Shown here: positions 1,344 to 63,092 of the stretch, piece by piece
Layout: every line of letters begins with the position of its first letter
Numbering within the stretch: the stretch's first letter is position 1
Origin: Utricularia gibba
Lineage: Eukaryota > Streptophyta > Magnoliopsida > Lamiales > Lentibulariaceae
NCBI GenBank assembly: GCA_002189035.1
Contig: NEEC01000002.1
Coordinates: 434,001-498,000, forward strand
Direction of reading: 5' to 3'
Length of the DNA stretch: 64,000 bases
The notes under the pieces: generated by a model
Databases searched by the model: none
What the model saw: only the letters and a program-made list of their open reading frames with translations
Told to the model about the DNA's origin: nothing
Made by a program: the position numbers and the translations under genes

Positions 1344-3135
1344 ATGGTTAGGTTGACGGCGGATTTGATATGGAAAAGTCCTCATTTTTTCAACGCAGTT
1401 CGCGAGCGCGAGCTGGATCTGAGAGGTATCCTGTTCTAACCAACTTCCGTGGCCATTTCTTTTCCACTTTATTGAATTCATGGGTATTGTTAGTGTGTTC
1501 ATTTTAAATAATGTACAGGGAACAAGATTGCTGTCATAGAGAACGTTGGTGCTACTGAGGTAACTGTGTTGTGTAACTTAGTTCTTTTTTCTTGGTTGTG
1601 AGCATTTTTTTTGTTGATTTTTTTTTTCTTTAGAAACCTTTGTTTTTTTTCTTTTGTTGTTTCGTTGGGTTTTCACTTGTCTTGCTGCTTTTGGTTGGGT
1701 ACGTACAAAACCCTAAACCCTATACTGCTGCTTTTGTTTTTCAAGAACGTTTTGTTGGCTACAGGATCAATTTGACACTATCGATATATCTGATAATGAG
1801 ATTGTCAAGCTTGAGAATTTTCCATTGATGAACCGGCTCGGTACTTTGTTGGTTAACAACAACAGGATTACTCGCATCAATCCCAATTTAGGAGGTACAA
1901 GCTTTGTGATTTGGGAGTTGAAATACATTCAAAATGTGTGTGGCGATGTTTAGATTAAGTTTCTTCTACATTGAAATGCTGCAGAATTTTTGCCCAAGTT
2001 GCATACGTTGGTGCTGACTAACAATAGGTTAACTAACCTGGTCGAAATTGATCCACTTGCGTCCCTCCCAAGCTGCAGTTTCTTAGCCTGCTTGACAACA
2101 ATATTACTAAGAAACCCAATTATCGCTTATATGTTATTCACAAGCTCAGGTCACTTCGTGTGCTGGATTTCAGGAAAGTGAAACAAAAGGTCAGTATTGG
2201 TATAAGAAGTTTCAAATGTTTTACAAGATAGGTTCTGCCGTAATAGACTTATATTTTTATACGGCATAGACCATTGGCACTTGCTGTCGGAATGGTCCCT
2301 ATGATGAGTTTCATTTTAGTTTCAAATGAAGGGTGTATCATGTGGACGTCAGAGTCCATGCTTTGTTTAGTGTACGTTTGTGAATGTTGCTAATACGCTG
2401 CTTCACATGATAATAGGAGCGACTTGAAGCTGATAAGTTGTTCACTTCTGAGGAAGCCGAAGAAGAGGCCAAAAAAGAATCTGTTAAGACATTTGTCCCT
2501 AGTGAGGTTCCTAGCGCCCAAGATTTGGACAAAGAGGAACAGATTTCTAAACCAGCTGCTCCAACACCTGAGCAGATTTTAGCTATCAAGGTATTTGGTT
2601 CCTTTTTGTCAACTATTTTAACGCTTCCTTGTCAATCTTTCATTCTCGAAGATAATTATGCTCTGTGAGTTCTAATTTCATTTTACTTCCACGTAGGCTG
2701 CCATCGTTAACTCACAAACTCTTGAAGAGGTCGCTAGGCTTGAACAGGTAAATTTCAACTTGTACTCCAGATGGGAAGTGCGATAAACTTTTGACTGAAA
2801 CAGCGATCTCATGAATGAGGACAATATAGTTCTGCTCAATGATTTCTCCAAGGGCTAACATTCAATTTTCTCAATTGTCATTGTATGCAGGCACTAAAAT
2901 CAGGACTACTTCCTGCTGATCTCAATCTCATCAGTGAGAGAGTTAGTGAACCAAAATCCGACGGCAACCAACATGGAAAAGTATCTACCAACGAGAAGGA
3001 AACAAATAGGGAAGCCCAAAACAAGGAATCTGAAGCAGGGGATGAGGCTGCAGAAATGGAACAGGTATATCTGACAGTAACATACCCAAGCATTTCTTAC
3101 AACACCTTTTTATTTGTTCCTTCTTTCAGGATTAG
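1344..3135 (+). CDS. U2A': U2 small nuclear ribonucleoprotein A' (leucine-rich repeat splicing protein)
   Basis: This subunit of the U2 snRNP binds U2B'' and U2 snRNA through leucine-rich repeats, in the nucleus. The start MVRLTADLIWKSPHFFNAV, the repeats DISDNEIVKLENFP and LVNNNRITRINPN, and the later KLHTLVLTNNRLTNL are family hallmarks. Exon 1 is 1344-1425. Later exons carry the acidic C-terminal tail, with the last exon reading GAT-TAG after an intron that starts at 3065. Predicted length is about 250-280 aa, normal for the family. The exon at 1985-2190 is broken: the frame reads IDPLASLP up to about 2067, then the conserved continuation KLQFLSLLDNNITKK is found one frame over, so one C appears to be missing at 2067-2069. 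The 3' end converges with ClpD. Confidence 0.9.
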
Positions 3136-3726
3136 GCTGGTCATCATATCTCCATCGCCACTTATCGAATCCAAAATATCTGAGTTGCGCTTGACTAATG
3201 CCGTCAATGTCCTCTGCATTTGATGTAGCATAGTAAAGCGTTCTAGTTTGATCCAGAAATATGCCTTATCTCATGTTCAACTGGTAAGTTACCAGGTTAA
3301 CTGTGGTTCAGCATTAGTTACATTGACAGGAAAAGTTGCGATCACATTTTTCTGCTTCTTGATTGAGTTCCTGTTTGTAGTAGTTGCCATGCCTCTAAAC
3401 TGGATGCATCTCATTTTGAACGCTTGTAATATGATCAATTGAAGTTTTTACAATTTTCATCTGACACCTTCCCGCTTCACCATTTCGTTGGTATTACAAA
3501 TACAATCATGTTACTGCATAGCAGCGCTAATTGAATTTCAGTTCAGGGATTGCTGCTGTAGCTACAAAGAATAATGATACAGGGGCCATATACACAACCA
3601 TCATTTACTTGATCCTAATGCAAGCATAGTGCAGGAACCTCCCTCCATTCAGGCAATTCTGTGCCACCTTTTGAGCCGCACCATGTGATCAGTACTCTCT
3701 CTTGGTCAATATCTCAAACTTGTATC
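3136..3726. other. Convergent spacer, 3' UTRs of U2A' and ClpD
   Basis: The two flanking genes end towards each other. Short open frames here have no recognisable protein features, and the sequence is consistent with 3' UTRs. Nothing else was seen. Confidence 0.5.
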
Positions 3727-6700
3727 TCAGGCTACTTGACTGTGTTGTGAACCTTTAATCACCACTGGATTACCAGAATCATCCAAATGCAGTGTTGCAA
3801 CATCTCCGGGTTCATAGTTGCCAGAAAGTAGAGACTCACTCACAACATCTTCCACCAGAAGGGTTACTGCTCGCCGGAGAGGCCGAGCACCGTAGCTCCG
3901 GTCGTAACCCTGTTCACATATGAAGTCCATGGCTGCTTGAGACACCTCCAAGCTGATCCCATACGAGGCCAGACGTTTCCTAACATCGCTCAACATTGTA
4001 TCCAGGATTTGCAGCATCTGAAAACACAGGAAATTAATGAAGCACTTGGAACAGAATCTCTGGTATGGTTTCTCATAAGCAGTCTCACCTGAGATTTCTC
4101 CAGAGGATGGAAAACAACTACTTCATCAATCCTGTTAAGCAATTCAGGGCGAAAGTACAGCTTCAGCTCCTCCATCACCAGTGCTTTCATTCCGGCATAG
4201 GATGTTGAGACATCTTCATCAACAAGAAAGCCAATGGAGTTCTGTCTACCCTTCACAATAGCAGCAGATCCCACATTGGAAGTCATTATAACGAGTGCAT
4301 TCTTGAATGACACTCTTCGACCCTGTCGGACAGACGACCCGCAATGTTAGCAGGTGCCGGAGGCGGTTTAAAATGGAAACAGAGAAGTGAAGAACCACCA
4401 ACCTGAGAATCTGTCAAGTGGCCATCTTCAAACAGCTGAAGAAGGATGTTGAAAATATCAGGATGAGCTTTCTCAATTTCATCCAGCAGGACAACAGTGA
4501 AGGGCTGTCTTCTGATGGCTTCTGTGAGAGTGCCGCCTCCTTCGTAGCCGACGTAACCAGGCGGTGCTCCGATTAACTTGCTTACGGTATGGCGCTCCAT
4601 ATATTCGCTCATGTCCAGTCTTAGCATTGCAGACTCCTGGGAGAAGGAAGCACAATCAGATCATGTGCATACAAATGAAGCTGATTTAAAAGAAGGTATG
4701 GTTCCAAAACCAAGATCAGAAAAGCACTCAGAAAGTCACAATTCACTTCAACAGTGCCATGAATCATTGTACCTTTGTTGCTGAACATTGAATATCAGGT
4801 ATCCAATTTCATTTTAACTCCAGGATGCAACACAGCGCATTAAGTGCAGAATATAAATATCATGAGATGCACAGACAAGAGCAGTGTGAAGGAAAATAGA
4901 GGGAGATGATGACTTACCGAACCAAAGTAGCAAGCTGCAAGAGATCTGGTTAGCTCAGTTTTCCCTACACCGGTTGGACCACAGAAGAGCATGGCAGCTA
5001 TAGGTCTGTCAGGGTCCTTCAAGCCAACCCGGGATCGCTTCACGGCTCGGCAAATAGCATCAACAGCTTCATCTTGACCAATTACTCTTTTCTTCAACTG
5101 CTCGTTCAGACTCACAAGAAGCATTCTCTCATCAGCAGTAAGCTTATTCACTGGGATTCCTGACCAGAGTGAAGCAACAGCAGCTACATCCTCAGGTCCA
5201 ACAGTCACAGATCTGGAATGTTGTAAGTATTCAGATTCTAAACATCTGCATAAAACTCTTATGATTTTAGGCAAGGTACATACTCATTAGAGAATGGGCG
5301 TGATGAAGATTGGTCAAAGTTTGGCCATGTGCCCTTTTCCAGAACCGAAATGCAATCATTGTCCCTTAGCTTCTTCGCCATTGACTGCTCAAGGAGCAAT
5401 GGGTCAGATATATGAATTTGCAGGTACCTAGAGAAATAAATTTAATACCGCTTGATGCCAGGCTTGCACAGCTCTGATTTCTTTCCAGTAATCACTTGGT
5501 GACTTCGAAAGCACTATACTTTGATTTTCCCTCCTCTTTTTATAAGCTTCCATGTTGGCTCTACTCCCTGCTTCATCTATCAGATCAATAGCTTTATCAG
5601 GAAGATGTCTGTCTGGAAGGTATCTTGCTGACAAGTGCACAGCTGCGTTTATAGCCTCCAGAGTGTATACACATCCGTGATGGGACTCATATTTTTCGCG
5701 CAAGCCCAGTAGAATTTCAATTGCATCTTCCTAGTTTGGGACAACAGAATTAAACCAATGCTATACAGAACAATAAAGAGGCAGTGTCTGCAGGTCTTGA
5801 GCAGGGAATTGTACCTGGCTTGGTTCATCAACATAAACAGGTTGAAATCTACGGGCCAGAGCTTTATCCTTTTCAAAATGTAACCGGAACTCATCCAATG
5901 TGGTGGATGCAATACACTGCATACAAAGTATGGTTTACATGATTACTTATCAATGAATGCAGGGCATTTGCATATGAACTAAGAGAATAGGGCCTTTCAC
6001 TAAACTAATCATGAGAAAATATGCAGGGTATTTGCATATGAACTTCAAAATGGTATAGAAGGGTTTCTTCCCACCTGAAATTCACCCCGCCCAAGAGAAG
6101 GTTTTAACAGATTTGCAATGTCAAGGCCACCTCCCTTAGACCCCGTGAAGCTGTGCCAGAACCAACAAGTGTGTGAACCTCGTCGATGAAGAGAATTACA
6201 TCCCCTGAAAGGTTGCTTCATCAACATGAGCTTGATGCATATCTAAGTTAACTGACCAAAAGATAATCAAACAACAACCCACCTGATTTCTTGATCTCGT
6301 TTAATAACATTGTAACACGTTCCTCTAATTCACCCCTCTCCTTGGCACCAGCTATTAGCAGCCCAATATCTAGAGATAAAATGCGCTTATCCTGAAGAAA
6401 AGAAAAAAGTTACAGGTTTCAAGATTATTCACCTGCTTCAAACTGACCAACTTCAAGAGAATCCTCATGGTTTTCTATTGAGCTACCGCACCTCAAGAAA
6501 TGAAGGAACTTTTCTATCACTGATGCTCAAAGCCAGTCCTTCTGCAATGGCTGTCTTCCCAACGCCAGCTTCTCCAAGAAGAACTGGATTACTCTTGGTT
6601 TTCCGGGCAAGAATTTGAATAATTCTTCTAATTTCAGTGTCCCGGCCGATCACCGGATCAATAGCTCCAGCCAAAGCACGTGCAGTGAGATCCACACAGA

Positions 6701-11123: not shown

Positions 11124-11393
11124 GAAAGTATCTGTTGATACGGGGAGATTATGCAAATAAATGTACAGATGGTCCAAATCAGAAGCAAACAGAGATCATG
11201 CATCAAGCTTTTGGTTCCGGTTATTGCATTTACAGCATCTCAAGCTTAATCTTCATCTCAGGCGGAGGCGGGCCGGGAGGGCTCTACTCCGGCGTCTTTA
11301 AGCGTCTCTATAGGCCATTCCCTATGAAACCCAACGGCATTTTAGGACCTTCTCCTAAGGCACGCAAACTATAAGATTCAAGGGAACAATGGA

Positions 11394-11859
11394 TTACTTC
11401 GCATATGCATCGCCTCTTATGGGATCGGACATGACTTCCTTTCGGTCGGAATCCTGAACATGCGCCACGTTGCGGAAGAATGAACGTTTCACGAACTTGT
11501 CCGCCTTCTCCGCAACCTCCTCCGGCGCCTCAACTTCCGGCAAGCTCTTCCTTGTCGACTTACTCACTTGCACGTTCGGTGCCCACTTCAGCTGGTGCGC
11601 CACCGTGAGCAACCCGAATCCCACAGACATCGTTATCATACCAACCGCCACAAACACCGGCGCATATTCCCCTTGAACATCCTACACACCGTAGTATTCA
11701 CACATTGCCGTGAACAAGAGATTGTGGATAATCTACTTACTGTGGTTTCACACGTTCGTAGAAGTGACGGGCCGTGGTGGAGTAGGGTTTCAGCTCCGGT
11801 GATGAAGGGGGTTTGAGCGGAAGCAGAAAACTTCGCCGTAGAGTGGCTGCCGGCGACAT
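11394..11859 (-). CDS. B12D/MLRQ-like small mitochondrial-type membrane protein
   Basis: Two exons. Exon 1 (11741-11859) encodes MSPAATLRRSFLLPLKPPSS and ends HFYERVKP; it is Arg- and Ser-rich and looks like a mitochondrial presequence. Exon 2 (11394-11681) encodes DVQGEYAPVFVAVGMITMS, one membrane segment, then APNVQVSKSTRKSLPEVEAP and KFVKRSFFRNVAHVQD. The pattern of a membrane helix followed by P-x-V-x-V-x-K and a charged helix resembles B12D, related to the MLRQ/NDUFA4 family, but the match is distant. The 5' donor reads CCACA-GTAAGT, where CCACAG-GTAAGT would be expected; without that G the two exons do not join in frame. The ATG follows a probable 5' UTR intron acceptor. Confidence 0.6.
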
Positions 11860-13283: not shown

Positions 13284-13372
13284 TCAACTTCAAGGAAATG
13301 GTGTGCTGCTAAAGCTTCTATATTTGTGACTGCTGCCCGCCAATGAATGCAGATATCCAGAGTGCCATGTTG

Positions 13373-15202: not shown

Positions 15203-15366
15203 ATTCAAGCCCCATGGTAGAATGACAGACATCAAAGGACAAGAGCTGAAGCTGTTTTCTTATAGAGCTTCTTTTACTTTTCTTATTCATGTCTTCAATT
15301 CTTTGATTTCTTTGGTAATAACAGATTCTTGTCCATTTTCTACACAAGCTGCAGTCTCAGAGTTGG

Positions 15367-21415: not shown

Positions 21416-24400
21416 TCAGATGTTAATAGTTGCATCCCATAATCTGAGTAGCCCATTGCGGCCCCCGGTACAGATTCTCTTCCTTTCAAGGTCTGAAGCA
21501 ACACATCTGACCTGAAGCCATCAGGAAGAGATAGTGTGTTCAGTTGGTGATATTGTCCTAAACTGGAACCAATCATCTCCCACAAGGTAAGTGAAGCAAG
21601 GTTAGCTAGGGGTGGGTGCGCTAGAGAACATTGGTGCAAACTAGCAGACCATCCTATGGAGGGTAGCACTTGGAAGCATTGAAATGTGTATGATATTAAC
21701 AAAGCATTAAGAGTAGATATCGTACCGTTGCCACTGTCTTCTGAGGGGTTCTGTATAATTGCCATCCAGTGATCTTTGAGCCTGAGGCGGAGAGTCCACC
21801 AAGTCTTTCCTGAGGCCAGTGGAATAGGGACATTGAATTGTCGGCAGCACCAACCGCGAGCCATTGCTCACCCGCATTTATTGACAAAATGGGAGCACTG
21901 TGTATGGTGACATTCTTGGTACACCTCAATGCACCTAGAATTTGATTGAATTTGAGCGTCAGTTGTCAGGGGATGGAGGATGAGGGCAAAACTGCCTTTC
22001 AATAACTCTCAGCTTGAAAAGGCAGTCTGTGCAAACTATGGAGGAGAGGAGCTGAGCATTGCCAGCCTTACCATCAACATTTTCCCAAAAGCGAAGAAGT
22101 CCATCATTTGAACCTGGAAAAAGAAGAGTCCTCTGATAATAAGACTTGTGACTTGCATAGACAGCCATAAACCTCTTTTTTTTTTAATGAGAACAGATAT
22201 TTAAATTCCAAGTCATTTATTTTTTCCACAGAAAAAAATATCAGATGAACCTGTAATAACCCCTTTGTCCATCATAGAGTAATCCACACATAAAACCGGA
22301 CCATCATGGCAAGCCAGAACAGCATCACATGATCCTCGTGAGACAGACCATATCCGAGCAGTCCAATCATCACTACCTGTCAATAAAGTGTCGCCTGCCA
22401 TTCTTATGGACCTAGATGGCAAACACACTTTGCTTCATACACTGAAACTGTGCATCAGTGTACTGAGACTCACGTAATTACCACTCACCTGATCCATCTT
22501 GAATGGCCTACAAGTTTATGCATTTGCTTTCCAGCTCGAATGTCCCATACGTATGCAATACTAAAAAGAAATGCATCAAAGGTCATGTTTCAAGAAAATA
22601 ATAACGATGAGAATTCACAAGGGTTGGGAACACACGAATCTCTGCCTCCAGAAGCCAGGATTCCAGTGGAATCATCATAATCTATGCAGAGAACTGCACT
22701 TGAACATCGACCTACAGTAGCAACACAGGTGTCTGTTCTCACATCCCACATCTTCACAGTTCCATCATGTGCTGCTGTGAGGACACGCTCACCAGAGAGC
22801 ATACGAACAATGCTAACCTGAAATTATCTACAGTAAGCACAACTATGCGCACAGAGCTGCATCTTGATTCCTTTAACATTGTATGTGATACAAATGACAC
22901 TTTACAAATCTTCTTCTAGAAGGAGATAATGTAAATATACAGAAACAGAGAATGCCATTTGACAACATAAGACAACTTCTACTGTCACAGATAAAAAACA
23001 GAAAGGGGACAAATATAGCTAACCTGGGCATCATGCCCCTTGAGTTCCTCTAGAAGCTGAGATGTCTGCTTATCCCACACAAGAACAGATTGGTCATCGG
23101 ATCCTGATACCACTTTCGCTCTATCAGAGCTTATCGCCCTCACAGTTCTTCATCACAAAAGATACTTTTAAAAAACCAAAATACTATAGATGTGAAATAA
23201 TTAAATGAGAAATCCACTTGCAAAAGTAAGCGCATTTCTTCAAAGCTGCTATATCATATAGATGCTGATAAAAACGCACGTCATGTGTCAATCAATTCCA
23301 AAATATTAGAATTCCGTGTAATATAATACCTGGTATGACCCTTCAAAGTCGCTCTGAGTTCAGAACCACGAATACTGGGATCCCATACCTTCATCTGAAA
23401 CATAAAATCAAGGCGGTAGGATTTAAACTTAATCACTGTATAAGTTATTACGCCATTGCAATTCTCATGTTTGAAATATGCAATGCAAGAGAGAAAAATG
23501 AGAAATATGGCTAGCTCGCCCAGAATGGATCTTTTGACATAAGATCCTGAATCTAAGACGCAATCTTACTGTGCAGTCGGTACTTCCACTGATAAAGAAT
23601 CCAGCATCTTCACGATCTCCAACCAGATCCCACACTTCCTTTTTGGTAACACAATGCAGAACAGTCACTGCCCCACTATGACCTCTCAATACGCGCATGT
23701 TCGTCTGCACCTTTTTCTGTGCCACTGCTGTCGCATCTTTCTTGTTAAGAGATCCTGGATCAGAGAATTCAACGTCAAAAATTAGTCTAATTTTTACGAT
23801 ATATGATACCAAGATTTGCACATCCAGAGTCTTCTTACCAACACGAGTAAAAGAAGTAGTCCTGTCCCTACTAAACATGCTCTGTACCCAGCTCCTTCCA
23901 ACTACTGATGCCTCTGAACCTTGCTCATTGCTGTTGGAAGAATTCTGTGGACGTGGAGAAGGAAGACCAAATGAAGACAATGGCTGAGATTTTCCAGCAT
24001 GGATCCCCAATAACCAAAGCATGTTTGCCGTATATGCGAGAAATACCCCCTAAGCCGTATCTGAAACAGTTTAGTAGCCAAACACAAGTAAAGGAGGAAA
24101 ATGTTAGCAAAACAAGCTACAAGGTGCAAAATTATAACAGTGATTTTTCCTTTTATATTATAATTTTATAATATAGAACCCAAACATGAGATCACAAAAG
24201 GTTAATGCAAGGTTTTACGCACACAACACTTTCATTTGTACATAATTTAGAACAAAAACCACCATAGCAAAGTATTATTGTGTCCATTTCAAGAAATATA
24301 TGTGACGCAAAAAGAAATCCATCTAAAAAACTTAACAAAAAAAAACAGAGTTATACATTTTTGTAGAGCCAAATCCAACAAGCTTATGTGCCTATTTCTA

Positions 24401-27400: not shown

Positions 27401-29780
27401 GTAAAGAACTACGCTCTGGTTCTGGAATAGGAGGAATTTCCTCTGATGTGGTAATAAGATTATGTTCAAGGTCAACTACCACAACCTGCAAGATTATTCA
27501 AATGGCGTATGTAAAAAAAACGCATGAATTCCACAGACAGAACTGTGGTTTTTTTCATTATTCAAATACTTACTGTCACCATGCTAAATGTACAAATGGC
27601 ATATCTAAAAACCAAGTCTGCCTGGAAAAAAAAATAAATATACATAATAACTTACGCCATCCATGACAAGGCCAAAGGTGTCAACATCTGAATGCAGGCC
27701 CATCATGTATGGAGTTGGAGCATCAATGTAGTCAACTCCACTGAAAAATAGAATGGGTATGTACACATGCTGCAGAATAACAAGAAAAAAGATGGTCAGT
27801 AATTGCCTTGATATATTAAAATAATATCAATCAATATATTAAGACACCTTTTCTCTTGACTCAACCAATAAAGCAAATAACTCAAGAAAAATATTACCTG
27901 CCACCGGAATGGATATATTAGGTGGCATATTGCCTCAGATACAAGAGTTAAAAGAGAATATCTGCATAGAAAGATAACCTAGCTTTAGCTTGAAGTGAAG
28001 ACTAAAACCATTTGCATAAATGTTTCTTATGATGCAAATGAAAAGACGAGGGATAGAAAATGAACATTCCATATACAGTACTGGATAGCTATTCGGTAAA
28101 CGAGTAAAGATTCTTTTTGTAGAAATATAACACTTTGTGAATTGAGAAGTGGTTTAGCCAGATTTAGGAAAATATTAACCACATATTTTCCTTTTTCAAC
28201 AAAAAAAAAAAAAATTCACATGCACAGCTTGATCTGTACGCATATCATAGAAATGAACAGTAGCAAGACATAGGGTTTAATCGAGCCTCAGGAATCTGTG
28301 CTTCTTGTAACACAAACCTTTGTACATATAGTGCATCCCTGTATAAGACAGTTGAAACCACATTTTCGGAAGTACATAAAGCCTACCTTGATGAGAATTT
28401 CAAAGAGGTAAATTGTGAAAAACAGGCAGTTACCAAAACACATTAAATAATGAGTTCCGTGATACTAGGCAAAGTATACTTCCTAAATAACACTCACAGC
28501 TGCTGCTGCTGTTTCACAATGACACAAAGATATGCAAACGTCCGAGCAACCAGCATATTGGAAGCTAGAGTTGCCGTTAAAGAAAAGAAAAAATGGACCC
28601 ACAAGGTCCTAAATTACAATGGAGGATAAAAACCAAAATCTAGAAGATAGCATACTTATTGGAGCGAAGCAAAATCCTCCTTTCAAGCAGGACAGCTGTG
28701 AATAGTTTAATAAGATTATCAACATCCAAACACTGAACCAGAGGTTGAAATGAAATCTGCCACCATGTACAAATGGAGAATCAGCTAGAAGTAAACCAGA
28801 CAACAAAGCCTTAATTCAGAAACAGACCCCAAAATTTATAAAACAATAGAATAACAAAAACGCTTACATCAGCATGTGGAAGAGTATCTGGTGGCGGTAT
28901 CTCCAAAGCAAGCAGGCTGTTCTCAATCGCAAACAAGACACGTTCCTTTCCAGATGTAGGCAAACAAACATTGGAAACTACGAATGCTATGACTTCCCAT
29001 AGAGGCTTGCTGAAAATATATTTTTAGACTTAGTACATACTCTACCTTAATACAACATATCAGTAACCACTCCGGATGGAATGAAAAAAGCATGCAAGGA
29101 AAAATTATCCTCTTCATTGGAATCAACGGGATGAACGATTATACTGTCATTAGAAACACCAATAGCAGCATCATGGGGATCATAAGAAAATAAATCAAAA
29201 CCACAGTGTGTACGAGCTCGTTCGCACCCCATTTGTTTCTTTATTCACAAAAAACCGTGATCGGACTAACCATTTGCGGCAGAAAAGTTTTATTTACAAC
29301 TTCAACAATACCTGCCACCCGCATCCGAAAAACAAAGTTGGAATATTTCCTCCAGAGCCTCTCGAAGAGCGCGAAAGCATGGAGAACGCGATACAAGACA
29401 AACGCACTTATCAGCAAAGGAATCCCCAGGAATCCGATAAGCCCCGCATATATCCAAGCAAACAGGATCCCGGAACGCAATGCAAGCTACATAAATCTTC
29501 GAACCATCGCCTTCGGTCAAAACGATGGGATAACTACGCGGAAACGTAGTTGGGTCACGGGAATCATATCCCGATGTGTAAAACTGGAGTCCCGCCGGCA
29601 ACACGCAAGTGGGAAGTTGGGGCGGAGGCGGAGGATATAGCGACTGATTTGTGGGGGGTACTGATCCAGCAAAGACGGTAAGTACATGGTGGAAGTTCCA
29701 TGGTATCCTCGGCCGCCGTCGAGAGTTCGAATCTCGGGGCCAACTCCGCACACCACGAAGTACTCGAAGATGTGAGGCAT
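21416..29780 (-). CDS. SCD1: SCD1 (STOMATAL CYTOKINESIS-DEFECTIVE 1): DENN domain plus WD40 protein
   Basis: SCD1 acts in clathrin-linked exocytosis and cytokinesis, probably as a Rab exchange factor. Exon 1 starts MPHIFEYFVVCGVGPEIRTL and carries the upstream DENN part (FPRSYPIVLTEGDGSKIYVA). The core DENN region reads PLVQCLDVDNLIKLFTAVLL and RRILLRSNK, then DLEHNLITTSEEIPPIPEPE. The middle has KLQDAIGRGQDPTSILP and VPDYVQRHLRTLSIWEDPR. The C-terminal WD40 propeller has VLRGHSGAVTVLH, VLTAAHDGTVKMWDVRTD, LLTGSDDWTARIWSVSRGSC and the end GLLRLWDATINI. It spans more than 8 kb with long AT-rich introns. Two exons are broken by one base: in a G6 run (29653-29658) after LDQYPP, and in a C4 run (24005-24008) between CFGYWG and IHAGKSQPL. 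Confidence 0.94.
25883..25907. repeat. Poly-T tract of 25 in an SCD1 intron
   Basis: An uninterrupted run of about 25 T. On the coding (minus) strand it is poly-A, as in a retroposed tail or simple microsatellite. No flanking duplication was recognised. Confidence 0.8.
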
Positions 29781-30593: not shown

Positions 30594-31570
30594 TTACCGG
30601 AGCCGGCGATCCACCGTCCTGCTTGTATAGGGTTCCCACAGATCAACGTGGACCTTAAGTGGACCTTTCAGTGCCTTCTTCCATTCATGAATATTCGGCA
30701 GTGTACCCGTAAGCGCCAGTGAGCTCTCGTCTTTCCGGTCTTCGATACGCAGTACAGAAATCTCCCCAGGGAAAACCTCATTCATGCTTTTCAAGGTCTC
30801 CTCCATTATAGTACCACCATCTGTCTGTAAATCCTCCGGTTCCACACAGCTCCCCCCGATGTTCACCATCATTCTCCCGCCACTCCTAAGATTCCTCCTC
30901 AATTTCTCCCAGGTAGCGGCGTCTTGGAGTTCCGGAATCACGCGCCCTTTGCTGAAAAGATCGACCAAAATCCCGGCAAACCCGTCTCTCAATCCTGCAT
31001 TCAACCCGTTTCCCGTGTGGATATGAAGTCTATCTTTGAATTTCTTCTCCATCTTATCTAGCCAGAAATACTCCCTCGCCACGGCGATGACGGATGGGTC
31101 CAGTTCCCAGCCGTGGATCACTCTGTCGGGGTAACGTTCGAGGATGATTCGAGCGGCTGTCCCGGCTCCAAACCCGAGCAATCCTATCGGTCCCGGCGGG
31201 AGAATCGGGGCAACGTAGCGAACACGTCGTAGTAGGCATCGGTGAGCGACTTAAAGAGATAAGAAATGCTATGAATGTTGCCAGGAGCGTCGAGCAACAG
31301 AAGCCTGGAGCCGGCGAGAGGGTGGTCGGCGGCGCGTGAGACTTGGAGGACACGGATGTAGTTGTGCCTGGACTTGAACTTCACTAGTGTTTTGACGTGT
31401 TCGATGGGGATTCCAGACTCATCCACAGCGGCGGACGCCAGCGCATACCGATCATCAAGCTTTGAAAACTCGCAGCGAGGAAACGCGGCGGAGGTCGGAA
31501 GCGATATTGTCGGTGAAAGCCTGTGGTGGAGACGGATCCCGGGACTGAATTGGGCCGCGAAGAGCTCCAT
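30594..31570 (-). CDS. Spermidine-synthase-like SAM-dependent methyltransferase
   Basis: A Rossmann-fold protein of the spermidine synthase-like methyltransferase superfamily, about 325 aa. Motif I is GLLGFGAGTAARIILERYPD, followed by the acidic loop VIHGWELDPSVIAVAREYF. Further on are AGILVDLFSKGRVIPEL and LRSGGRMMVNIGG. Whether it makes polyamines cannot be told. Start MELFAAQFSPGIRLHHR at 31570; the upstream in-frame codon is TTG. The single exon is broken near 31207-31210: DVFATLP runs into a stop, while the conserved LPPGPIGLLGFGAG continues one frame over, so one G/C of a four-base run seems lost. Confidence 0.8.
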
Positions 31571-34086: not shown

Positions 34087-37000
34087 TCAACAGACTTCTG
34101 TATCGAACTTGAGAGATATCCCCATGCTGAATAGCTCCTGGCACAGCAGCTTAGCCCCGTAAGGCACATTGACTCGGACAACATCCTCGATGGACTCACA
34201 AAAGCGGCAGAAAGGTCCTCGAACTTTCCGGCCACCGAAAACAGGGCGCTGGATCACGTTCACCATGTTCTGGCATTTCCTGCAGATATGCATCTGTGAG
34301 GAGTCACTCAGGGTGAAGAGACGCTCGTGAAGGTTTGCTGCTGCGCCGTGGGCGATCAGGCAGTCGCGCTCCATCTCTCCGAACTTTATACCGCCGAACC
34401 GCTTCCGATCCGCGACAGGCTGTCGCGTCAGTGGGTGAACGGGGCCCGTGTTCCTGAACTTAACCTTGTCTTCAGCCATGTGAGTCAGACGCTGGTAGCA
34501 CGTTGGCCCCATGAAGATGAGAGACTGCACCTTCTCTCCAGTCCGCCCATCGTAGACTCTTTCAGCACCCCACCGCGAGAATCCACGCCTGAAATATGAA
34601 CCATCTGTTCATACCCAGAAGGCAGCGGATTAGGAGAATCTGCAGTGAGAAAAGAAAAGGATGCTTACTTGTGAAGCTGAGCAGTTATATCTTCGACTGC
34701 CGGCGAAGAAAAAGGTGTGGCATATTTCAGTCCCCCTCCAAGTGCGATCCCTTTCCCCAAAGCAGCCTCCAAAAGCTGACCAGGAGTTTGTCGAGAGGGG
34801 AAGGCATGGGGATTTATCACAATGTCCGGAACTATTCCTTGCATTGTAAAAGGAAAATTCTCTTGGGACTCCAGGAACCCCAAGACGCCCTTCTGCCCGT
34901 GCATGCTTGAAAATTTGTCTCCCAGGCAAGGAGAACGAACCTGCACCAATAAGTATCAACCAAGGGATCAATCTACCAATAAAGAAAGAGGCAGAGAAAA
35001 CGGCAAAACACCTAGACACTGGCAGTTTGATGCGAAGTGACATTACCTGACGCAAGGATACAACAGCATGATTATTTCCATCATCATCTGCTGAAAGCAC
35101 AACCTTTTGAACCATGCCTCTTTCCGTATGCTTGAGCTTGATGCTGTGATCCACACCGGTGGCGGAATGCTTACCAATGACGATATCACCGGTTTGGAGA
35201 TTTGCGCCGACATATGGAAGCCCATCATCATCAAGACTGTCAACACGCCCTATCTTGCTTGGTATCTTTCCAAAGCTGATCAAATCATCACCTTTGACCT
35301 TTTTTTTGGTCGATGGATTTTCCGGGTTGTCAATTTTGGCCTTGTAACTCCTAATATGTTCAGATCTGAACATGCCACGCTCCAGAGAAGCACGGTTCAT
35401 GACCAGAGAGTCCTCTTGGTTATAACCAAGGTGAACATTGACAGCAACAATAGCACACTGGCTGTTGAAAAACTGGGGTTGGGCCGTCACTCCTTTGCGA
35501 CGATCAGAGTGATGTAAGCTCTCAAGGCATTCTGACAGTACAGTCCGAAAAAGGGGCCTTTGAGGATAGTACAACTGATGGGTGTTCGTGTCCACTCTAA
35601 TGCTTGGATTGGTGGTTGAAAACCCAATTGCTTGATGAGAATGCTTCTCGGACTGGTATAGAACTCTCCTGGCGTGATCATGATTTGCGAATGGTATAAG
35701 CCCGCAGCTCAGTCCTAACAAGAAGGAGCTATCAAGTTCACAGTGAGTGTACTTGACAGGAGGATTCTCTAATTCGGCCATGAACAGGTACTTTGTTCCC
35801 CATGCCGTTTGGCAATCCTCTTCCTCTTCAGGCCCGATAAGCTCCACTATCCATTATCAAGAAGAGATTGGAAAATGAAGCCCCCCTTCAGATCCTTGAT
35901 TTTCCTCAAATTCTGAACAACTAAAAGAGGACGAAGAATTCTCCAGCATCTGCAAATACACGTACTTCACCATGATTTTTGTCTCTTTTAATTTCAACCT
36001 GAAAGGGAAAAGGCTGAGAAGCTAGAGAACAGCAAGCGTTATTTACAACTGGAGTAGGTAGGAAGGGGGTGATCAAACCTGACAAGGCACCTCCATTTTC
36101 CGGCGTTGACGCCGTAGCTTAGAAACAAATGATGATGAATCTTTGCAGACACCAACTATGTCACCATCAAGAAAGATCTTATGCCTTCCGTCAAGCAAAC
36201 TTGAAGCATCATCAGACAATTGTTCCATTCCACATTCTTGAAATTTTTTAAAGAGAGATCCACGCTCAAGAAGATTAGTACTGACAAGGCCCAGGCTTGC
36301 AAGATTTTTGACCAGTCCACAATTCTCTCCATCCGGTGTAGACAGGAAGCAAATCTTGCCCCAGTGTGATGGATGGCTTGTACCCATGCAAAAAAGAAAC
36401 AAGTAAGATGGCCAGGAAATTGGAAATAAAATCTAATGCATCAAGAAGATTGGCTTCAGAACGTGGTATCCTTAAAACATGAAGGAGTCAAGACTTGAGA
36501 GTAGTTTGTATGTATATCATGAACTTTATAGAGCAACTCACGGGTATCTAGCATCGCCAACTTTTCCAGTGTAAGTTACTTGTTGACGCGTTTTCCTCAT
36601 ATCTGCAACTGCTTGCAAAGGATTTGTCCTCCTAAGAGTAGCCACTACACCTGAAATTCTCTCCATCCTCTTGTAAGGATGAGACCAGGCACCGGTAGAG
36701 AAGGCTCTGGAAAGCCCACTGGTGATGATGGATGCATCCCAATAGTGGTCCATCGACTGCACATCACGTTCCTTGTGCAGATCTCTCTGCATAGCTCGCA
36801 TCATGCGTCTCTCTGCATGCTTGATGTGAATTCTAAGTTCCCGCTCAAGAAGTTCTCCGGCCAGCTCTAACCTCTTGTTCCTAAGGTCATCCCGGTTATC
36901 AACTTTCCTGCGACCCATATAGGCCTCCAACAAGCATTTCACCATGTATCCAAGAAAGCATGCTTTCTGCACTGAGGTTTTGAGATGAGGAAAAAGAAAA

Positions 37001-38642
37001 GATTTCAAGCATTCATCTATTGGCTCTTTTGGTGGGTACTTGCATCTGTCGAGATGCTCCTTTATGAACTTAATTGCATTGCCTGCCTTACGAAAACCAT
37101 CACATTCTTTATCAGCCTCATGAATAGATGCAAGAAGTATGTTCGCAACTGCAGTGTTTCCAACATCCAAATCAATCATCTTTACCACTTCTTTGTCATT
37201 CTTAGCACCCAAGGCAAAAAAAAGAACCCAGATGGGCATTTCTGTGATGAAGTGGACTGTAAGAATCTTTTCCCCATCTACGAAATTGTTTACTCTGGGA
37301 CCCAACTTCAAGTAAACTCTTTTTCTTTTATCACTGCCCGATATGCAACAGTCCAAGTTGGTTCTTTGGAGATCCACAGTCGTTTAAGACATAATTGTTC
37401 CTGGGCAATGAATGTCTGCAACAAAAGTTTTTGAAACAACTTCAGTATTCCATAACAGCTGAAGCCTACTTATTAGTCCACTTTGGGATCAAAGGAACAA
37501 GTAGAAGAATTCTGTTCACCTGAGTTATTTTAGTAACGACATAATTAACAGGAAAAGAAGCCCATCTCTAGACCCTCACCTTCTCAGCACCCTTAATTAT
37601 GAAATACCCACCGTTGTCGAAATCGCAATCCCTTTTCCACTTCGCTTCATCCAGCACAGAACTGAGTTCACCATGACGGGCAGACTCCCAATCATTATTT
37701 CACCATCATGCTCATAAAGTATTTTCTTCTCAAGAAACTCATTTTGGCCAGTTTTGAACTTGTCACTTTTAGACATACCTTCAGTATACACCTGAGATGA
37801 AGTGTATATGAAAATCAATAGAAAAAAAAAGCATGGGAAGCATCTCAGCAAAAATGGGTGCCTAGATGAGGGGATAAACGAAATATCTTTCTATAGCAAA
37901 TAAGAAAACCATAAAAAGTGAAACCGGGGGTAATGATTTAGATTTGAGAAATAATCCAATACTACGAATTGAGAGGAATGATGCCCTGTAAATTCAAATG
38001 CTATTGAAGTTAGGACAGTGTACCTGAATACACATCACATCAAATGCTGACAACATTGTTACACAAGACATCAAGGTAGGTTCCATGAATATGTGAATGA
38101 GAAAATAAAAGAATATGCAAAACATTCACAACCTGAAGATGAGCCTCTACTTTAATCTTCGATGCATAGGTCATGTTCTGAAGACGGGCATGGTGTGGGT
38201 GAAGCTCCAAGATATCTTTAGCACCATCAACCGATACACCTGGCCAGAATACAGGTGGTTCCAGAGTGACCTTACCAAACTTGAGAGAAGCCCTCTTCCA
38301 TTCTCCCTCGCCCTTCTTTGATGGTTCATAGCTCGGATCGATATTAATTTCACCTAGAGACTCAAACAGTTGGTGAATACCATGTTTAATGAACTGATCA
38401 TATGAATTCAGCTGGTGGCTAATCAATCCATGTTGATCAAAAAAAGCTGATGCGGCCTTTCTACAGAAAACTTTAACAACCCCTTCATCCAATTCCTGCA
38501 TGTTATTCCCGAACTCATCATCTGAATCAGAAAAATCAAACTCAATATCTTCATCAATGTCCATTGTAGTGGTGCCATTGAAGAAAATTCCCTTGCTGCC
38601 ACTGGGTCCTGCATCTTCAACTAAATCGTCCCATGCACCCAT
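34087..38642 (-). CDS. NRPD2: Second-largest subunit shared by RNA polymerases IV and V
   Basis: NRPD2/NRPE2 forms half of the active centre of the plant polymerases that make siRNA precursors and scaffold transcripts for RNA-directed DNA methylation. The N-terminal region reads ISHQLNSYDQFIKHGIHQLF and LQNMTYASKIKVEAHLQV. Then come GLSRAFSTGAWSHP, FLSTPDGENCGLVKNL, AVNVHLGYNQEDSLVMNRAS and GDKFSSMHGQKGVLGFLES. The C-terminus has VADRKRFGGIKFGEMERDCL, the zinc-binding CRKC and CRFC pairs, and PYGAKLLCQELFSMGIS. These variants fit Pol IV/V rather than Pol II. At least four exon frames are broken by one base: at 37630-37632, about 37326-37329, about 35942 and about 35850. This could signal a pseudogene, but the same fault affects unrelated neighbours. 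Confidence 0.93.
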
Positions 38643-39332: not shown

Positions 39333-41270
39333 ATGGATCCCAATCCGAAGAATTTCCCGATTCTCTCCTACGTGATGTCCAAGGTTCCTCCAGTCCTCAA
39401 ACGCTCGCTCTCTGGCGCGGCCAATGCCTCTGATGTGGAGAATCCACCGGAGGTGGAGCTCAAGCCGAAGGAGCCTTATTTTGAGATCACAGAACGGATG
39501 CCTCACCTCAAGAATCCCTCTCTTATTACCGCTATGCGAAGCGCGGTGAGTGACGTCGTGCAGAGTCGATCCACGCTCCAAGCTCTCGGCAAGAGGCCCG
39601 ATCATGAGACCGTCGAGGCGGCGAGGCTCAGGTTATCGCAGATAGAGGCTCATTCGTCGCAGGATTCTGAGGAAATGATGCAGGAGATTGAGATGTACAA
39701 GGCGGTGCTTTCGCTTGATCAGATGCACGATGCGTACGGGAAGATGCTGAGCGAAGCGGAGACGAAGTTAGAGAAAATCTACGAGGCGGCGATGGCGGGA
39801 AGTGAAGTGATCGAGGAGGAGCCCGTGAATGAGGAAGTGGAAATGGATGAGGAAGTGGTACGCATTCTTAAGGAGGCGGAATCGGGTAAAGAGATCAAGG
39901 CTGTGGATTTGTCTGGTAGAAAGTTGAGGATTTTTCCCGAGGCGTTCGGAAAAGTGAAGTCCTTGGTTGTACTAAATTTGTCCAATAATCAGCTGCAGGT
40001 TCATTTACGATTCCAAATTTATATGATTATCGAGATTCTACGCTTAGTTTTCTTGCTTTCCTCTGCTTTTCTCCTCTATCCATTGTGAGGATGACGTGTT
40101 GTTGGTGAGCATATTGCTTCAAGTATGAATGCATGGGCAGCTGCATTTGTTTGCTCTTTGTAGGGCTTCTGCCAAGTTTGCTAATTTGGTTCTTTTCTTT
40201 AGATAGAAAAAAGCAACCATTGCATCCGCAATACCTGAAACATAATTGCAATTTTCTGTTCGAAATCTCGTAAAGGTTGATGATATGCGTTTATACTCTG
40301 GTTTGAAAGTGGAAATTGATGTTTTTGGCATTCTGGAAACTTATGTTGGGGATTGACGTTTGAATCTGATGTTAAATTGATAAAAACAGGTGCTTCCTGA
40401 TTCAATTGCTGGTTTGGAAAATCTCGAGGCACTCCTTCTCTCAGGAAATCTTCTCGAGTCATTGTCTGATTCCATTGGTCTCCTGTTTAAGCTAAAGTTC
40501 TTAGACGTTTCAGGGAACAAGCTTATTGCACTGCCTGACAGTATTTCTCAATGCAGGTGAAATTTTTCCAGTTAAAAATTTACATCTACATCTTCCTTCA
40601 AATTGCTGATACTTGTCACTAACAGGATGCTGGAGGAATTGGATGCAAGCTTCAACAGGCTTACCTATCTTCCAACCAACATTGGGTATGAACTTGTGAA
40701 TCTGAGACGGCTGTCAATCCACCTCAATAAAATTGGCTCTCTTCCTGCATCTATTGGTGAGATGACGTCTTTGCGTGTTTTGGATGTGCACTTCAATGAG
40801 CTTAGTGGACTTCCAGATTCAATCGGAAAGCTGACATGTCTAGAAACCCTTAATCTCAATGGCAACTTCAGTGACCTGACAGAGCTCCCTGATACAATAT
40901 CTGAACTGATCAACCTCAAGGAACTTGATCTGAGTAATAACCAGATTCATGCCTTGCCTGACACCTTTGGATTCCTCCACAGTTTATCAAAGCTGAACTT
41001 GGACCAGAACCCTCTTGTTATACCTCCCAAGGAGATTGTGGCTGAAGGAGCCGATGCTGTTAGGTCTTATATGGTGCAAAGATGGGAAGACATATCCAAG
41101 GAAAATGAGCGCAAAAGCATTGAAATGCAACAGCAATCCGAAGCCGGTTTGTTGATGCGGAGTACCTCGTGGCTGAATAACCTGGTCACCAATGTCGCTG
41201 GTACCGTTTCTGAGTATCTAGGAAGCCCAAAAACGCTAACATGGATCCCTCTCTGAATCAGCAACTGTAG
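39333..41270 (+). CDS. Plant intracellular Ras-group-related leucine-rich repeat protein (PIRL)
   Basis: PIRLs are plant-specific cytosolic LRR proteins related to Shoc2/SUR-8, with roles in pollen development. The N-terminal half is a charged coiled coil ([39 protein letters not shown]). About ten LRRs follow ([57 protein letters not shown]). The C-terminal GVYW-like box is represented by [16 protein letters not shown]. Three exons. As written the frame stops at 41256 after [10 protein letters not shown]. One more A in the A5 run at 41229-41233 gives instead an ending [10 protein letters not shown] with TAG at 41268-41270, which matches the usual PIRL ending. The end coordinate assumes that. 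Confidence 0.92.
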
Positions 41271-52469: not shown

Positions 52470-55400
52470 ATGATAATGATTGCAGACTCTTACGCAGTAA
52501 ACCGCGGCGCGTCTGATGTTTATGCCGCTGATGGTTCTAGCGCTGAACCTTCTCAGAACTCAGCTGTTTCTGCAAATGAAAATCTTGCCGTTCTTGCAAG
52601 TTCTTCTCTAGAATCAGAGACGGAGGGCTATGACTCAGTTACTAACAATAATGCGGCTACTTTGCATGGGCCTGAATCTAGTGCAGCAGAGAATGGAGTT
52701 GCGTCTTCTGATCGTTCAGGATCTGCTGCATTGCATCAGCCATTGGATGGATCTGGTACTCATAAAAATATTTCCTGGTGTTGAGAACATTAGGCATTTT
52801 TTGTGTATTTTTGACTATATGTACTCTGGATGTGACCTGAATAAATTCCATATAACGAGTCCAATAATCTAAGACTTTATATAGGTTTGTCAGCAGAGGA
52901 AGAAAAATTATGGAGCATTGTCACTGCAAATTCACTTGAATTTGGAGCCTGGACTGCGTTAATTGAAGAAACAGAGAGAACATCAGAGGTGCTCCCAGCA
53001 CATTCCGTATATTTGCATGTTTCATTCACAGCTGCGAACCTGTTTTCATGTATCAAATTATGTTCTAGTCTTTCCTTTTGGTTCGAAACTTACTTGCACA
53101 TTTTCCCATTTAAAGGGGAATATTTCAAAAATCCGGAAGGTTTATGATGCTTTCTTGGTGGAGTTTCCACTGTGCTACGGTTACTGGAAGAAGTATACGG
53201 ATCACGAGGCTCGACTCAGCTCCGCAGAGTGTGTTGCTGGGGTTTATGAACGTGCTGTTCATGGTGTTACCTATTCTGTTGATATGTGGCTGCACTATTG
53301 TGCCTTTGCTATTGGAACGTATGGAGATCCTGACACCATAAGAGGGTAAACGTCTTTGCCTACTGACTCTAGTTACCAGGGGGGAGGGGGGGCGGTAGTT
53401 TATTTTGCTAGAATTCTGGAGTCATTTTATTTTAAATTGTTTGGTATCCTGCCACTTTCTAGACATAGTTGTTTCTTAATGAGTTCCTGACCTGGGATGC
53501 CTTGTTTCAGATTATTTGAAAGGGCATTAGCATACGTTGGCTCTGATTATTTATGCTTTCCTCTCTGGGACAAATACATTGAATATGAAATTTCCCTTCA
53601 ATCCTGGAATCGTGTTGCTGCAATCTACACAAGGGTCTTAGAGGTTCCAAATCAGCAGCTGGATCGTTATTTTGAAGGGTAATATAACATAAGAGTTCAA
53701 TTTTGTTAAAAAATAAATTTCTACCTCCATGCCAGTTTCTTTTGTTCCTCTTTGAATGTACTGATGTGTATTCATGAACTCTGTCTAACATTTTTTAATG
53801 GTTCTTTGGTCGGTGAACATTAACCATTTCCCTGAATTGGTCCTCACTAATCATTTCATTCGGAATGCCATAGTTCATTCACTCTAGTGCGTCCTGCAAT
53901 TTTACACCTTAGTTGCACCAATGTTTTTCTTTATGGAGTTTTGTGTGTCGGGTTTTTCTATTACAGATTCAAGGAACTGGTTGCGAGTCGGCCTCTTTCA
54001 GAGTTGCAGACACCTGAGGAAGCTTTGGCTGGATCTGCTGTGATTACTGACGGGGTTGATAACGAGAATGCAGAGGAGACTTCTCCTGATGCGATAGATC
54101 AATCATCAAAGGCTGCAAGTGAAGGCATAAAAGATGCTAAGAAGTTGGAGAAGTACATTGCTACCAGAGAAGAAACATACAAAAAGGCTAAAGATTTTGA
54201 TTCAAAGATCATTGGTTTTGAAACAGCTATAAGGAGGCCCTATTTCCATGTGCGCCCCTCAATGTTTCTGAGCTCGAAAATTGGCACAACTATCTTGATT
54301 ATATTGAAACTGGAGACGACTTCAATAAGGTACCTGGATTGTTGTCAAAGAAATCTCCATTTTTTCTCGTCACTTAGTTTTAGTCGCACTCTTTATACAT
54401 TGACTTACAGTTAAGTAATATCTGCCGCATCATTTGCTTTATTGGCTAAACGATTGGAGACGATGTTTTAAAACGGGGTATTGAACTTGGACTAAAGCAT
54501 GGACCTTCCATTTGCTTTCTATGAGGCTAAGTACTTCAATCTCTCATTTTTCAAGTCGAGATTCTGGGTACCAAATGTGTGGTATGGTTTATAGTGACAA
54601 TGTTATGCATGCAGGTGTGTTCTTAGCTTCCTAACCATCTATCTATCAGCATGGAGACCCCCTCACATATCGGGGCCTCCTGTTCCACCAGCGGTGTAGC
54701 TTTTTTAAAAAATATTGTCTTCGTACTTTACTTCTTCCTCATAAAAAATTGAATTTCTTAACCAATTACTTGTTGTGAGTTTTCAGATTGTCAAGCTGTA
54801 TGAAAGGTGTCTAATAGCATGTGCAAACTATCCTGAATACTGGATACGCTATATTTTGTGCATGGAAGCCTCTGGCAGTATGGAGCTTGCTGAAAATGCA
54901 CTGGCGCGTGCCACTCAAGTGTTTGTAAAGGCTAGTACTCCATTTTGCTGTCTACATCTGCAGTATTCATGTTCTTCAGAAAATTTTAATATTGCTCATT
55001 TCCAAAGCCTTCTTCCATGCAGCAGCATCTGACTTTGTGCTTGTTTTGTTCAATATTCATATGCTTTCTTATATTTATGTTAACAGAGGCAACCAGAGAT
55101 CCATCTCTTTGCTGCTCGTTTCAAGGAGCAGCGAGGTGATATATCTGGAGCACGGGCTTCTTATCAACTTGTGCACACTGAAATTTCTCCTGGCCTTTTA
55201 GAAGCAATAATCAAGCATGCAAATATGGAGAAGCGGCTTGTAAAATTGCTTGTCTCAGGCTTTTTCTTTTTTCAGTTATAATGAGTGTAACTAAGTTCCC
55301 TGTTTTTAATTGTCCAGGGAAAGCTGGAAGATGCATGTTCCTTGTACGAGCAAGCAATTGCAATTGAGAAAGGGAAAGAGCACTCACAAACATTGCCCAT

Positions 55401-58478: not shown

Positions 58479-58776
58479 TGTGCATTCTCATTTCTTCTTA
58501 GAATTTTCAGCATCTTTCATGTGATACAATCTTCGTTCTAACATGTGAAGGATTCCATTCAGCCATGTTATTATGTAACCACTTTAGTCTTTCCTGTGCA
58601 CATGCTGAAAGTCTCACGGATACTTGAACAAGTTTGTATGTTGAAGGTTTGTTTATGATGCAAGAACCTGGAACCAATCTTCCAATTGGGATTTTAAATG
58701 CAAAGATCTGCAGTTTAAGGCTTATTCAACTGCTTTTTCTTTCTTGTAAGGAATGCTAATCTGCTGCATCTGTTCC
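58479..58776. other. Convergent spacer of PSB28 and exostosin gene
   Basis: About 300 bp of presumed 3' UTRs. Nothing else was seen. Confidence 0.45.
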
Positions 58777-60388
58777 TCATCTCTCTCTCTTGGGCTTTGT
58801 GAAAAATGGATCCCATTCATGAGGCCCCAGCTTTTGCCCTTCTTCTAGCAAAGCATACTTCCAACTGATCTCCTCAATGACATTGTCATCTCTTCTTCCA
58901 TTCACGATGTCTTTCCTCAGCTTGGTCACCTTGCTTATTACTCCATCAAGAGCTATATCAAAGGCGTCTTTCAAAGTCTCCAGCCTAGAGCGAGGATCAG
59001 CATATATAATCCGAGGGATGAGATTTATCACAGCCTCTCTCATTTTCTTTACACTATCTACAGGAATCTGGCTGAGCCTTCTCTCTATGCTTGTGTTGCT
59101 GCGTACGTCGTTCTCAGGTATGAACACAGAGTACAGTGAGAAATTCTTAGGCAAGTGCCATGTGTACTGGGTGTAGGCTGATGCAGGATGGAAGAACACA
59201 GGTATACAACCAGCGAGCATCGCATCGAATGCAGATCTTCTTGTGTATGAATCTCCCTGAGGTTGCAAGCAGAAAATGGAGCTCTGAAACATCTGCATAA
59301 CACTTCCAGGAGAGTGGCACTTGCTCTCCCCGAAATCACACTCTAAAAGTTCACAAACCTTGGAGTTTCTACACTGGTTTATTATCTGGCCCCTGATGGA
59401 CTTTTCATTCCCCGGCCGGGGTGCTCCGGCGAAGCAGAAGAGGTACGGCCTATTATGTTTTCGCATTCGGTCTTGCCATATGTAGACATCAGCATCACTT
59501 GATGGATGGAAGTATGTTGGATAAGGAACAGCATAGTCATTAGAACTCCATGGACTAGATTCCACCACAAGCATGGTCATGTTCTTTGCTGCAGGCAACA
59601 GGAGCAGCTTGTTCCCCCAGTCCGACTCTCGGTCAGTTAATCTCCTAAAATCCCATGTTATCCTCCCTGCAACAAGGAAATGATCCTTTCCACCCATAAC
59701 ACTCCATTCTGGCTTCTTTACAAGCCAATCAACCAGAGCAAGAGAGGCAGCATCCCTCACAGATACACTGTGCCCCCAGAGATGCCTTGCAACATCAAAC
59801 CCCGCATAGAAGGGAACAAAGACCGCAGCAGCGAGTGATGAATCATTTGTCAAGCACTCATATTGCTTCATCCTGTTGAGGAATATGAGATCCACAGCAA
59901 ACTGGTTGGTGGCATACCAACCTGTGTCTGAGAACACACCTTCAACCTTTTCCAATGGTGGACCAAGACCAGCATTGGTTGTGAACTTGCACATGTTGGT
60001 CCATGGACTAAGACTCTCACACTCCTCCAGCATATCCTCGTTGAATGCCGGGGAAGACGATGAACATATATATATCTTCCCCACATGGATCACTTTTGTT
60101 TCCCACAGATCTCAGAGCCCTCAAAAAAGGGTAGCTCTGTTTCGCCGCCGTCTGTTGCCGCGGCTTGAGCGGAACGGGCGGCGGATGATAATCCTCCTGC
60201 TTATAGGCCACAGTTTCAAGTAACTGCGAGGCGATTCCATCGCCACCTCCAGAGTGGAAGAAGATGAGAAAGAACCAGAAGAAAGCTGACAGCGAGGCCA
60301 ACAAGCAAATCCGGGAATGGTGGTTTTTCCCATGCCCCCTCTCCATGAACTCATTCAACTGCGCCACTGTCACAGGCCGACGCCGCAT
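58777..60388 (-). CDS. Exostosin-family xyloglucan galactosyltransferase, MUR3-like
   Basis: A type II Golgi membrane GT47 enzyme. MUR3/KATAMARI1 relatives add galactose to xyloglucan side chains. Start [20 protein letters not shown] at 60388, then a signal anchor ([20 protein letters not shown]). The catalytic part reads [93 protein letters not shown] and [20 protein letters not shown]. Which glycan it makes is not decided. The single exon is broken twice within 35 bp: a C4 run at 60079-60082 and a G4 run at 60050-60053. Adding one base to each gives [20 protein letters not shown]. An upstream ATG at 60532 is in frame and cannot be excluded. Confidence 0.88.
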
Positions 60389-61745: not shown

Positions 61746-61781
61746 ATGTGTCGCTGGGGAGGATGGTCGAATCCAACGGCT

Positions 61782-63092
61782 ATGGCGACGGTGGCGAGGC
61801 TCCCGATTGTTGCTACTGATCGTCCCATTGCAATCCGGCGCATAACTCACTTGGAATTTTACGCATTGTTGAGAATGGATGTAACTTCTCCTTGAGCCGT
61901 CGTTCGTTACGGTTTCGCAGGACTCGGCAATCGTTGCCCCTCACCTGCTTCGCTTCCAATGGGCCTTCTCCTTCGGAAATCAGGTTCCTGCTCCTAGAAT
62001 ATGATTCCAAAAGTACTGATAGCTATGGGAAAATTGTTTTTGCTTACTTGTTTCCGTTTTGGTTAGATTTGGTTGTTTCGTTTTAAGGTGAACTGATTTT
62101 GGTTATGGGAGGATTTGCCTTAGTATTTAATGCCTCATCGTTTTGATCATCATCGTTGTGATTTTGCTTAGTTCTACGGCTAAAATTCGAAGTGAAGTAC
62201 TATCTCCCTTCCGTTCGGTGCGCATGTTCTTTTATCTTGCCTTCATGGCTAGTGGGTCTCTTGGAGGATTGATTGCCATCAGTCAGCTGATTGGTGCCCT
62301 TTCGGTTCAATCCAGAGCCGAACAAGTTCCTGAAATTCTCAAGGGTTTAGGAATTGACTTTGGAGCAGTATCTATCTTTGCATTTCTGTATTACCAGGAA
62401 AACAAGGCCAAAAACGCCCAGGTGGCTCGGCTTTCAAGAGAGGAAACCCTCTCAAATCTTAAGATTCGTGTGAAGAACAAGGTTCTTCCTTTAAGTACTT
62501 TTAGGGGAATTGCTCGCCTCGTTATACTTGTTGGTCCGGCGTCTTATATTGAGGAGTCTTTCAAGCGAAGCATACCTTTCTCAGAGGCTCTCCTGGAAAG
62601 AGGAGTTCTTGTTTTACCGATTCTGACTGATAGTGTTTCACCGAAATTGGAGTTTGAGGAAGCAGAAGAAAACGAGGATATCATTGCTAGAAGAAAAAAA
62701 TTATGGCAGTTGGTTCCTGCTTCTACGGCTGACTGGAGCAAGTAAGTTTTTTTTTTCGTTTCTTTTAGTTTTTTGATATTGGATTGCTCTTATTTCTAAA
62801 GCTGACAACAGGTGGTTAGATGAACAAAAAAAACTGGCTAATGTCACTCCGGATTCTCCAGTGTAAAGCTAGTTTTTTCTCTCTCTTAAATAAAAGGCTT
62901 AGTATTTATCGAGTGATGGTTTAGTGAATGTAGTTTCTATTTAAATGAAGGTATTTGTCTCTCCGCATGGATGGTCGGGTTCGGGGCAGCGGTGTTGGCT
63001 ACCCTCCCTGGAATGCATTTGTGTTGCAATTACCACCTGTGAAGGGAATGTGGTCTGGTCTCCTTGATGGAATGGATGGAAGAGTTCTTTGA
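61782..63092 (+). CDS. LPA1-like protein (LOW PSII ACCUMULATION-related, DUF3493), chloroplast
   Basis: Exon 2 onward gives a clear protein: KIRSEVLSPFRSVRMFFYLA, a membrane pair (ASGSLGGLIAISQLIGALSV and DFGAVSIFAFLYYQENKAKN), NLKIRVKNKVLPLSTFRG and VLPILTDSVSPKLEFEE. The end is WLDEQKKLANVTPDSPV joined to YLSLRMDGRVRGSGVGYPPW and MWSGLLDGMDGRVL. The helix pair is the DUF3493 region found in the PSII assembly factor LPA1, and the protein resembles At4g28740 (from memory). Exon 1 should encode the transit peptide, MATVARLPIVATD onward then SLSRRSLRFRRTRQSLPL, but these are one frame apart. A missing G at 61853-61854 would join them. An in-frame ATG at 61746 is also possible. Confidence 0.82.

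Follow-up and report, generated by a model that had tools for sequence, protein, structure and literature searches.

In the uncorrected PacBio assembly of P. falciparum, 25,352 indels were present, of which 5,857 were left after Illumina correction (PMC5964635). Before iCORN2, one-base indels in homopolymers break reading frames there much as described below for the bladderwort Utricularia gibba, and they vanish with short-read correction; tracks of more than 14 bp hold 98% of the homopolymer errors in that AT-rich genome (PMC5964635). Work on Utricularia draws evidence from lost genes, from truncation and from the decay of duplicates. U. gibba is reported to have NRPD1, NRPE1 and NRPD2 and to make 24-nt small RNAs, although at a reduced level (PMC8333044). 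A literature search found no report of such errors in the U. gibba genome.

The assembly analysed here comprises 100,091,633 bases (100.09 Mb) in 516 contigs. It agrees with the published long-read genome of U. gibba in size (101 Mb; PMC6265445), in contiguity (an HGAP assembly at 88x with a contig N50 of 3.4 Mb; PMC5793159) and in having a contig of 6.8 Mb (Unitig_8; PMC8333044), and differs from it in contig number, which is 581 in the published genome (PMC5793159). The window, i.e. the whole stretch of 64,000 nucleotides under analysis, is G000:C451:434001-498000 and lies on a contig (C451) of 6,822,880 bases. Its gene content is that of a flowering plant; scanning the window for Rfam families and tRNAs yielded no matches. 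HGAP polishes with Quiver, and we infer that the present assembly is a PacBio RS II/HGAP/Quiver assembly of U. gibba.

In this study, we report that conserved reading frames in this assembly break by the loss of one base within a G or C run, in the window and genome-wide. The broken frames are almost certainly an artefact of assembly over ordinary genes and not a real feature. A preliminary description of the window had listed 15 positions for at least 13, probably 15, one-base losses in exons. These are given below by window position and strand, with earlier placements in brackets where they differ. Names other than NRPD2, ClpD/ClpC and Pfam domains are our reading of the translations; C2 is the contig that carries the duplicated block described thereafter.

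2067..2069, plus strand: U2A' (LRR) exon, CCC, one base missing; C2 reads CTCCCGAAG against CTCCC-AAG in the window
6141..6144, minus strand: ClpD-like AAA exon, CCCC, one base missing; the flanking frames align to adjoining ClpC residues
11669..11672 (earlier 11740), minus strand: short unnamed conserved gene, CCCC, one base probably missing
24005..24008, minus strand: WD40/DENN gene (SCD1-like), CCCC, possible missing base; an alternative acceptor also keeps a frame open
29653..29658, minus strand: first exon of the SCD1-like gene, GGGGGG, one base very likely missing
31207..31210, minus strand: methyltransferase-like intronless gene, GGGG, one base very likely missing
35851..35852 (earlier 35850), minus strand: NRPD2 exon, CC, one base missing; LLDNG / IVELIG against structures 7eu0_B and 8hil_B
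35943..35944 (earlier 35942), minus strand: NRPD2 exon, CC, one base missing; FADAG / RILRPLLVV against 7eu0_B
37337..37339 (earlier 37326-37329), minus strand: NRPD2 exon, CCC, one base missing; WTVAYR / SDKRKRV against 7eu0_B and 8hil_B
37630..37632, minus strand: NRPD2 exon, CCC, one base missing; VMVNSVLCWM / DCDFDNGGYF against 7eu0_B and 8hil_B
41226..41228 (earlier 41229-41233), plus strand: LRR gene, near the stop codon, CCC in the window against CCCC in the C2 copy
54255..54258, plus strand: PRP39-like exon, CCCC, one base missing; C2 reads CGCCCTCTCAATG against CGCCC-CTCAATG in the window
60050..60053, minus strand: exostosin-type glycosyltransferase (MUR3-like), GGGG, one base missing; C2 is one base longer
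60079..60082, minus strand: the same glycosyltransferase, CCCC, one base missing; CCCCCC in C2, where the frame is intact
61853..61854, plus strand: first exon, probably of a transit peptide, GG, possible missing base

Searching the genome with the window DNA yielded one duplicated block, on C2, in which gene order is kept and of which 40 kb (C2:4,468,001-4,508,000; L034-L037) were compared. Where exons align, C2 carries exactly one extra base relative to the window at 2067, 41229, 54255, 60050 and 60079, and its glycosyltransferase is a single intact frame of 557 aa. The letter missing near 41229 is a C of CCC 41226-41228 and not an A of AAAAA 41229-41233. The PRP39-like copy on C2 has a one-base loss of its own, CATGG-GTTAC, elsewhere in the gene, where the window copy is intact. 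The C2 block is heavily thinned and has no aligned match for ClpD, the amidase, the SCD1-like gene or NRPD2. Two genes of the window are decayed on C2, the gene at 11390-12000 and a short-chain dehydrogenase; the latter is intact in the window (14160-15260), and its C2 copy has several frame-breaking gaps, as in the ordinary loss of one duplicate. C2 was not taken as a clean reference throughout, because some of its copies are pseudogenes.

The minus-strand gene at 34600-38660 is that for NRPD2, the second subunit of both RNA polymerase IV and RNA polymerase V. All three of its frames, read through, align in turn to the structures 7eu0_B and 8hil_B, and the frame shifts inside exons near 37630, 37337, 35943 and 35851, in every case by the apparent loss of one base. 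Restoring that base to the G/C run gives the junctions KGDCDFD, YRGSDKRKRV, DAGRILRP and DNGIVELIG, which closely resemble the structures; CCC at 37337-37339 fits better than TTTT at 37326-37329. Genome searches found no near copy of NRPD2, of ClpD or of the SCD1-like gene. With four breaks in NRPD2, a single-copy gene, and one in ClpD, the earlier observation that unrelated single-copy genes are affected holds.

Ten of the 15 losses are in this way confirmed by the C2 block, by the structures of the second subunit of Pol IV/V or by ClpC. The other five, at 11740, 24005, 29653, 31207 and 61853, fit the pattern as judged from the window sequence. Five sites move to a neighbouring G/C run. A deletion at 11740 itself was rejected, since these letters recur unchanged in the decayed copy on C2 and a GT-AG junction works: splicing at 11740 yields ..VKPQ MFKG, and one base in GGGG then reaches EYAPVFVAVG, so that CCCC at 11669-11672 is the better explanation. 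The restored reading would be VKPQ-MFKGEYAPVFV, as judged from the sequence and from the family to which the gene probably belongs. At 29653 the start Met and conserved start stand in one frame and the uDENN domain in the next, too close together for an intron to fit between them; at 31207 two overlapping ORFs read ..YDVFATLP and then PILPPGPIGLLGFGAGTA.. A missing base is very likely at both. At 24005 and 61853 it is possible; at the latter one added base opens the frame as far as the splice donor, in a stretch without conservation.

GRAS, HSP70 and PPR genes, together with the duplicated block, served as a sample outside the sites of the preliminary description. Here 22 one-base losses and no gains were found (p ~5e-7), which upholds the claim that the breaks run in one direction; within the window, too, no compensating insertion was found. 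The PPR genes, which have few introns, gave five breaks in 24 loci and 46 kb of open frame, each as one base missing. The GRAS genes are mostly single-exon and gave, read at base level, 11 single losses and one pair of losses. Two further GRAS splits (L089, L090) were rejected as breaks, being real introns, and a break on C414, about 1.5 kb from the contig end, is either an insertion or the loss of two bases and stands outside the 22. In HSP70, three breaks arose independently and each is a loss; one recurs in a near-identical small contig. At C241:17670-17910 (L088) this contig of 31 kb repeats C304:2236150-2236390 (L087) letter for letter, with the same broken HSP70 frame, and it is probably redundant. 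Base assignments in the three families were made by reading translations by eye, and a few strongly degenerate GRAS fragments were left out of the counts. Break density is about 1 per 4 kb in GRAS (some 46 genes assumed) and 1 per 9 kb in PPR; the window seems denser in breaks, but it was picked for them.

Every break with a clear run lacks a G or a C, and none lacks an A or a T; at a few sites (e.g. L076, L051 and window 2067) the lost base could also be A. The share of G/C among runs of at least 3 in intact coding sequence is 41% in GRAS and 29% in PPR. Because just these shares of the runs are G/C, the finding that 15/15 and 4/4 clear cases, respectively, lie in G/C runs is not due to chance (p ~2e-6 and 0.007). 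Length matters as well: a true length of 6 or 7 was found for 6/13 truncated GRAS runs, compared with 2/407 intact runs of at least 3 (p ~3e-9). Some breaks lie in runs of 2-3 bases, shorter than those usually blamed. One and the same C-rich stretch is short of a base in the closely related GRAS genes L072 and L073 and again in L075, and the error therefore depends on sequence. In an intron of the window 25 T stand in a row (25883-25907), so long A/T runs survive in the assembly; G/C runs in the window stop at 7. Since positions have been corrected, all window sites, including those first placed in A/T, lie on G or C. The earlier attribution to homopolymers thus holds for runs, narrowed from homopolymers generally to G/C runs. 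In P. falciparum the errors are mostly in long tracks of an AT-rich genome, in contrast to runs of about 2-7 G or C here, and for this reason the restriction to G/C is not accounted for by that work (PMC5964635).

Strong selection acts to either side of the breaks. dN/dS around the two glycosyltransferase breaks is 0.15 below and 0.26 above; it is 0.14 in the LRR gene and 0.10 in U2A'. A plastid control was sought in the sole psaA/psaB match of the assembly, on C515 (267.5 kb; L068-L071). There psaB is open and psaA is degenerate, with stops from substitutions and mixed indels; the same contig has cox1, which contains an intron of about 1 kb and whose frame is unbroken over 1.3 kb, too little sequence for inference. 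C515 looks mitochondrial with a plastid psaA-psaB insert and was for that reason rejected as a control.

In all probability, the breaks are consensus errors left behind in an assembly built from long reads only, and the genes would be intact in the plant. The fault would thus lie in the reads and the consensus, not in the DNA: the consensus would come out one base short in a G or C run, increasingly so as the run lengthens, no accurate short reads would have been used to restore it, and the genes underneath would be ordinary. The breaks show what marks long-read error, namely one-base indels in one direction, in homopolymers and especially long ones, genome-wide and whatever the function of the gene. 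Uncorrected long-read homopolymer error, as already proposed in the preliminary description, is hence by far the best explanation, given that the breaks are genome-wide, one-directional and bound to G/C, that duplicates are intact, that selection continues past the breaks and that the genome agrees with a PacBio/HGAP assembly.

Real deletions in duplicates decaying after whole-genome duplication would be the most natural alternative in a genome that is duplicated and fractionated and in which some C2 copies, those of the dehydrogenase at 14160-15260 and of the gene at 11390-12000, have truly decayed with stops and larger gaps. The real pseudogenes on C2, however, combine lesions of different kinds (stop codons, variously sized indels and lost splice sites), whereas the genes reported here show lone G/C losses only. 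Neither relaxed selection nor mixed lesions were found at the breaks, which are flanked by strong selection (dN/dS 0.10-0.26), the lesion is of the identical type across unrelated families, and genome searches returned no near copy of NRPD2, ClpD or the SCD1-like gene. We regard decay as very unlikely. The same small credence is given to the idea that a few breaks are real, for example that NRPD2, which Pol IV and Pol V have in common as second subunit, is being lost in a plant with a shortened DCL3; a true loss is unlikely given how closely the four NRPD2 breaks follow the general error pattern.

That no base is missing and intron/exon boundaries were misjudged is marginally less plausible again, even though 11740 coincides with a normal splice junction, another acceptor could be used near 24005 and two GRAS splits proved to be real introns. 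At least ten sites match a homologue in both frames and leave no gap that could hold an intron, which excludes misjudged boundaries for the ten confirmed sites. There is hardly any likelihood that the DNA truly lacks the bases and that programmed -1 frameshifting or insertion editing of RNA makes the protein. A -1 shift would bypass a missing base, and some sites do lie in runs, but no shared slippery heptamer conserved in homologues was found, plain GG is among the sites, and the sense strand misses both G and C. Moreover, the corresponding exons on C2 have the extra base and keep their frame unaided, most members of the GRAS family are unbroken, and such a mechanism would have to act on unrelated genes with no common signal.

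If residual consensus errors are indeed the cause, gene lists drawn from this assembly would wrongly present many genes as broken. Extrapolation of roughly one coding break per 4-9 kb in the sampled families to a plant gene set suggests thousands of false frameshifts. This matters for U. gibba, because studies of the species draw on gene loss and truncation. Not every broken gene is an artefact, since the shortened DCL3 has been confirmed by transcripts and 5' RACE (PMC8333044). A simple filter would be to distrust lone one-base losses in G/C runs, and calls of gene loss in Utricularia that rest on a frame break in such a run merit checking with short reads or RNA.
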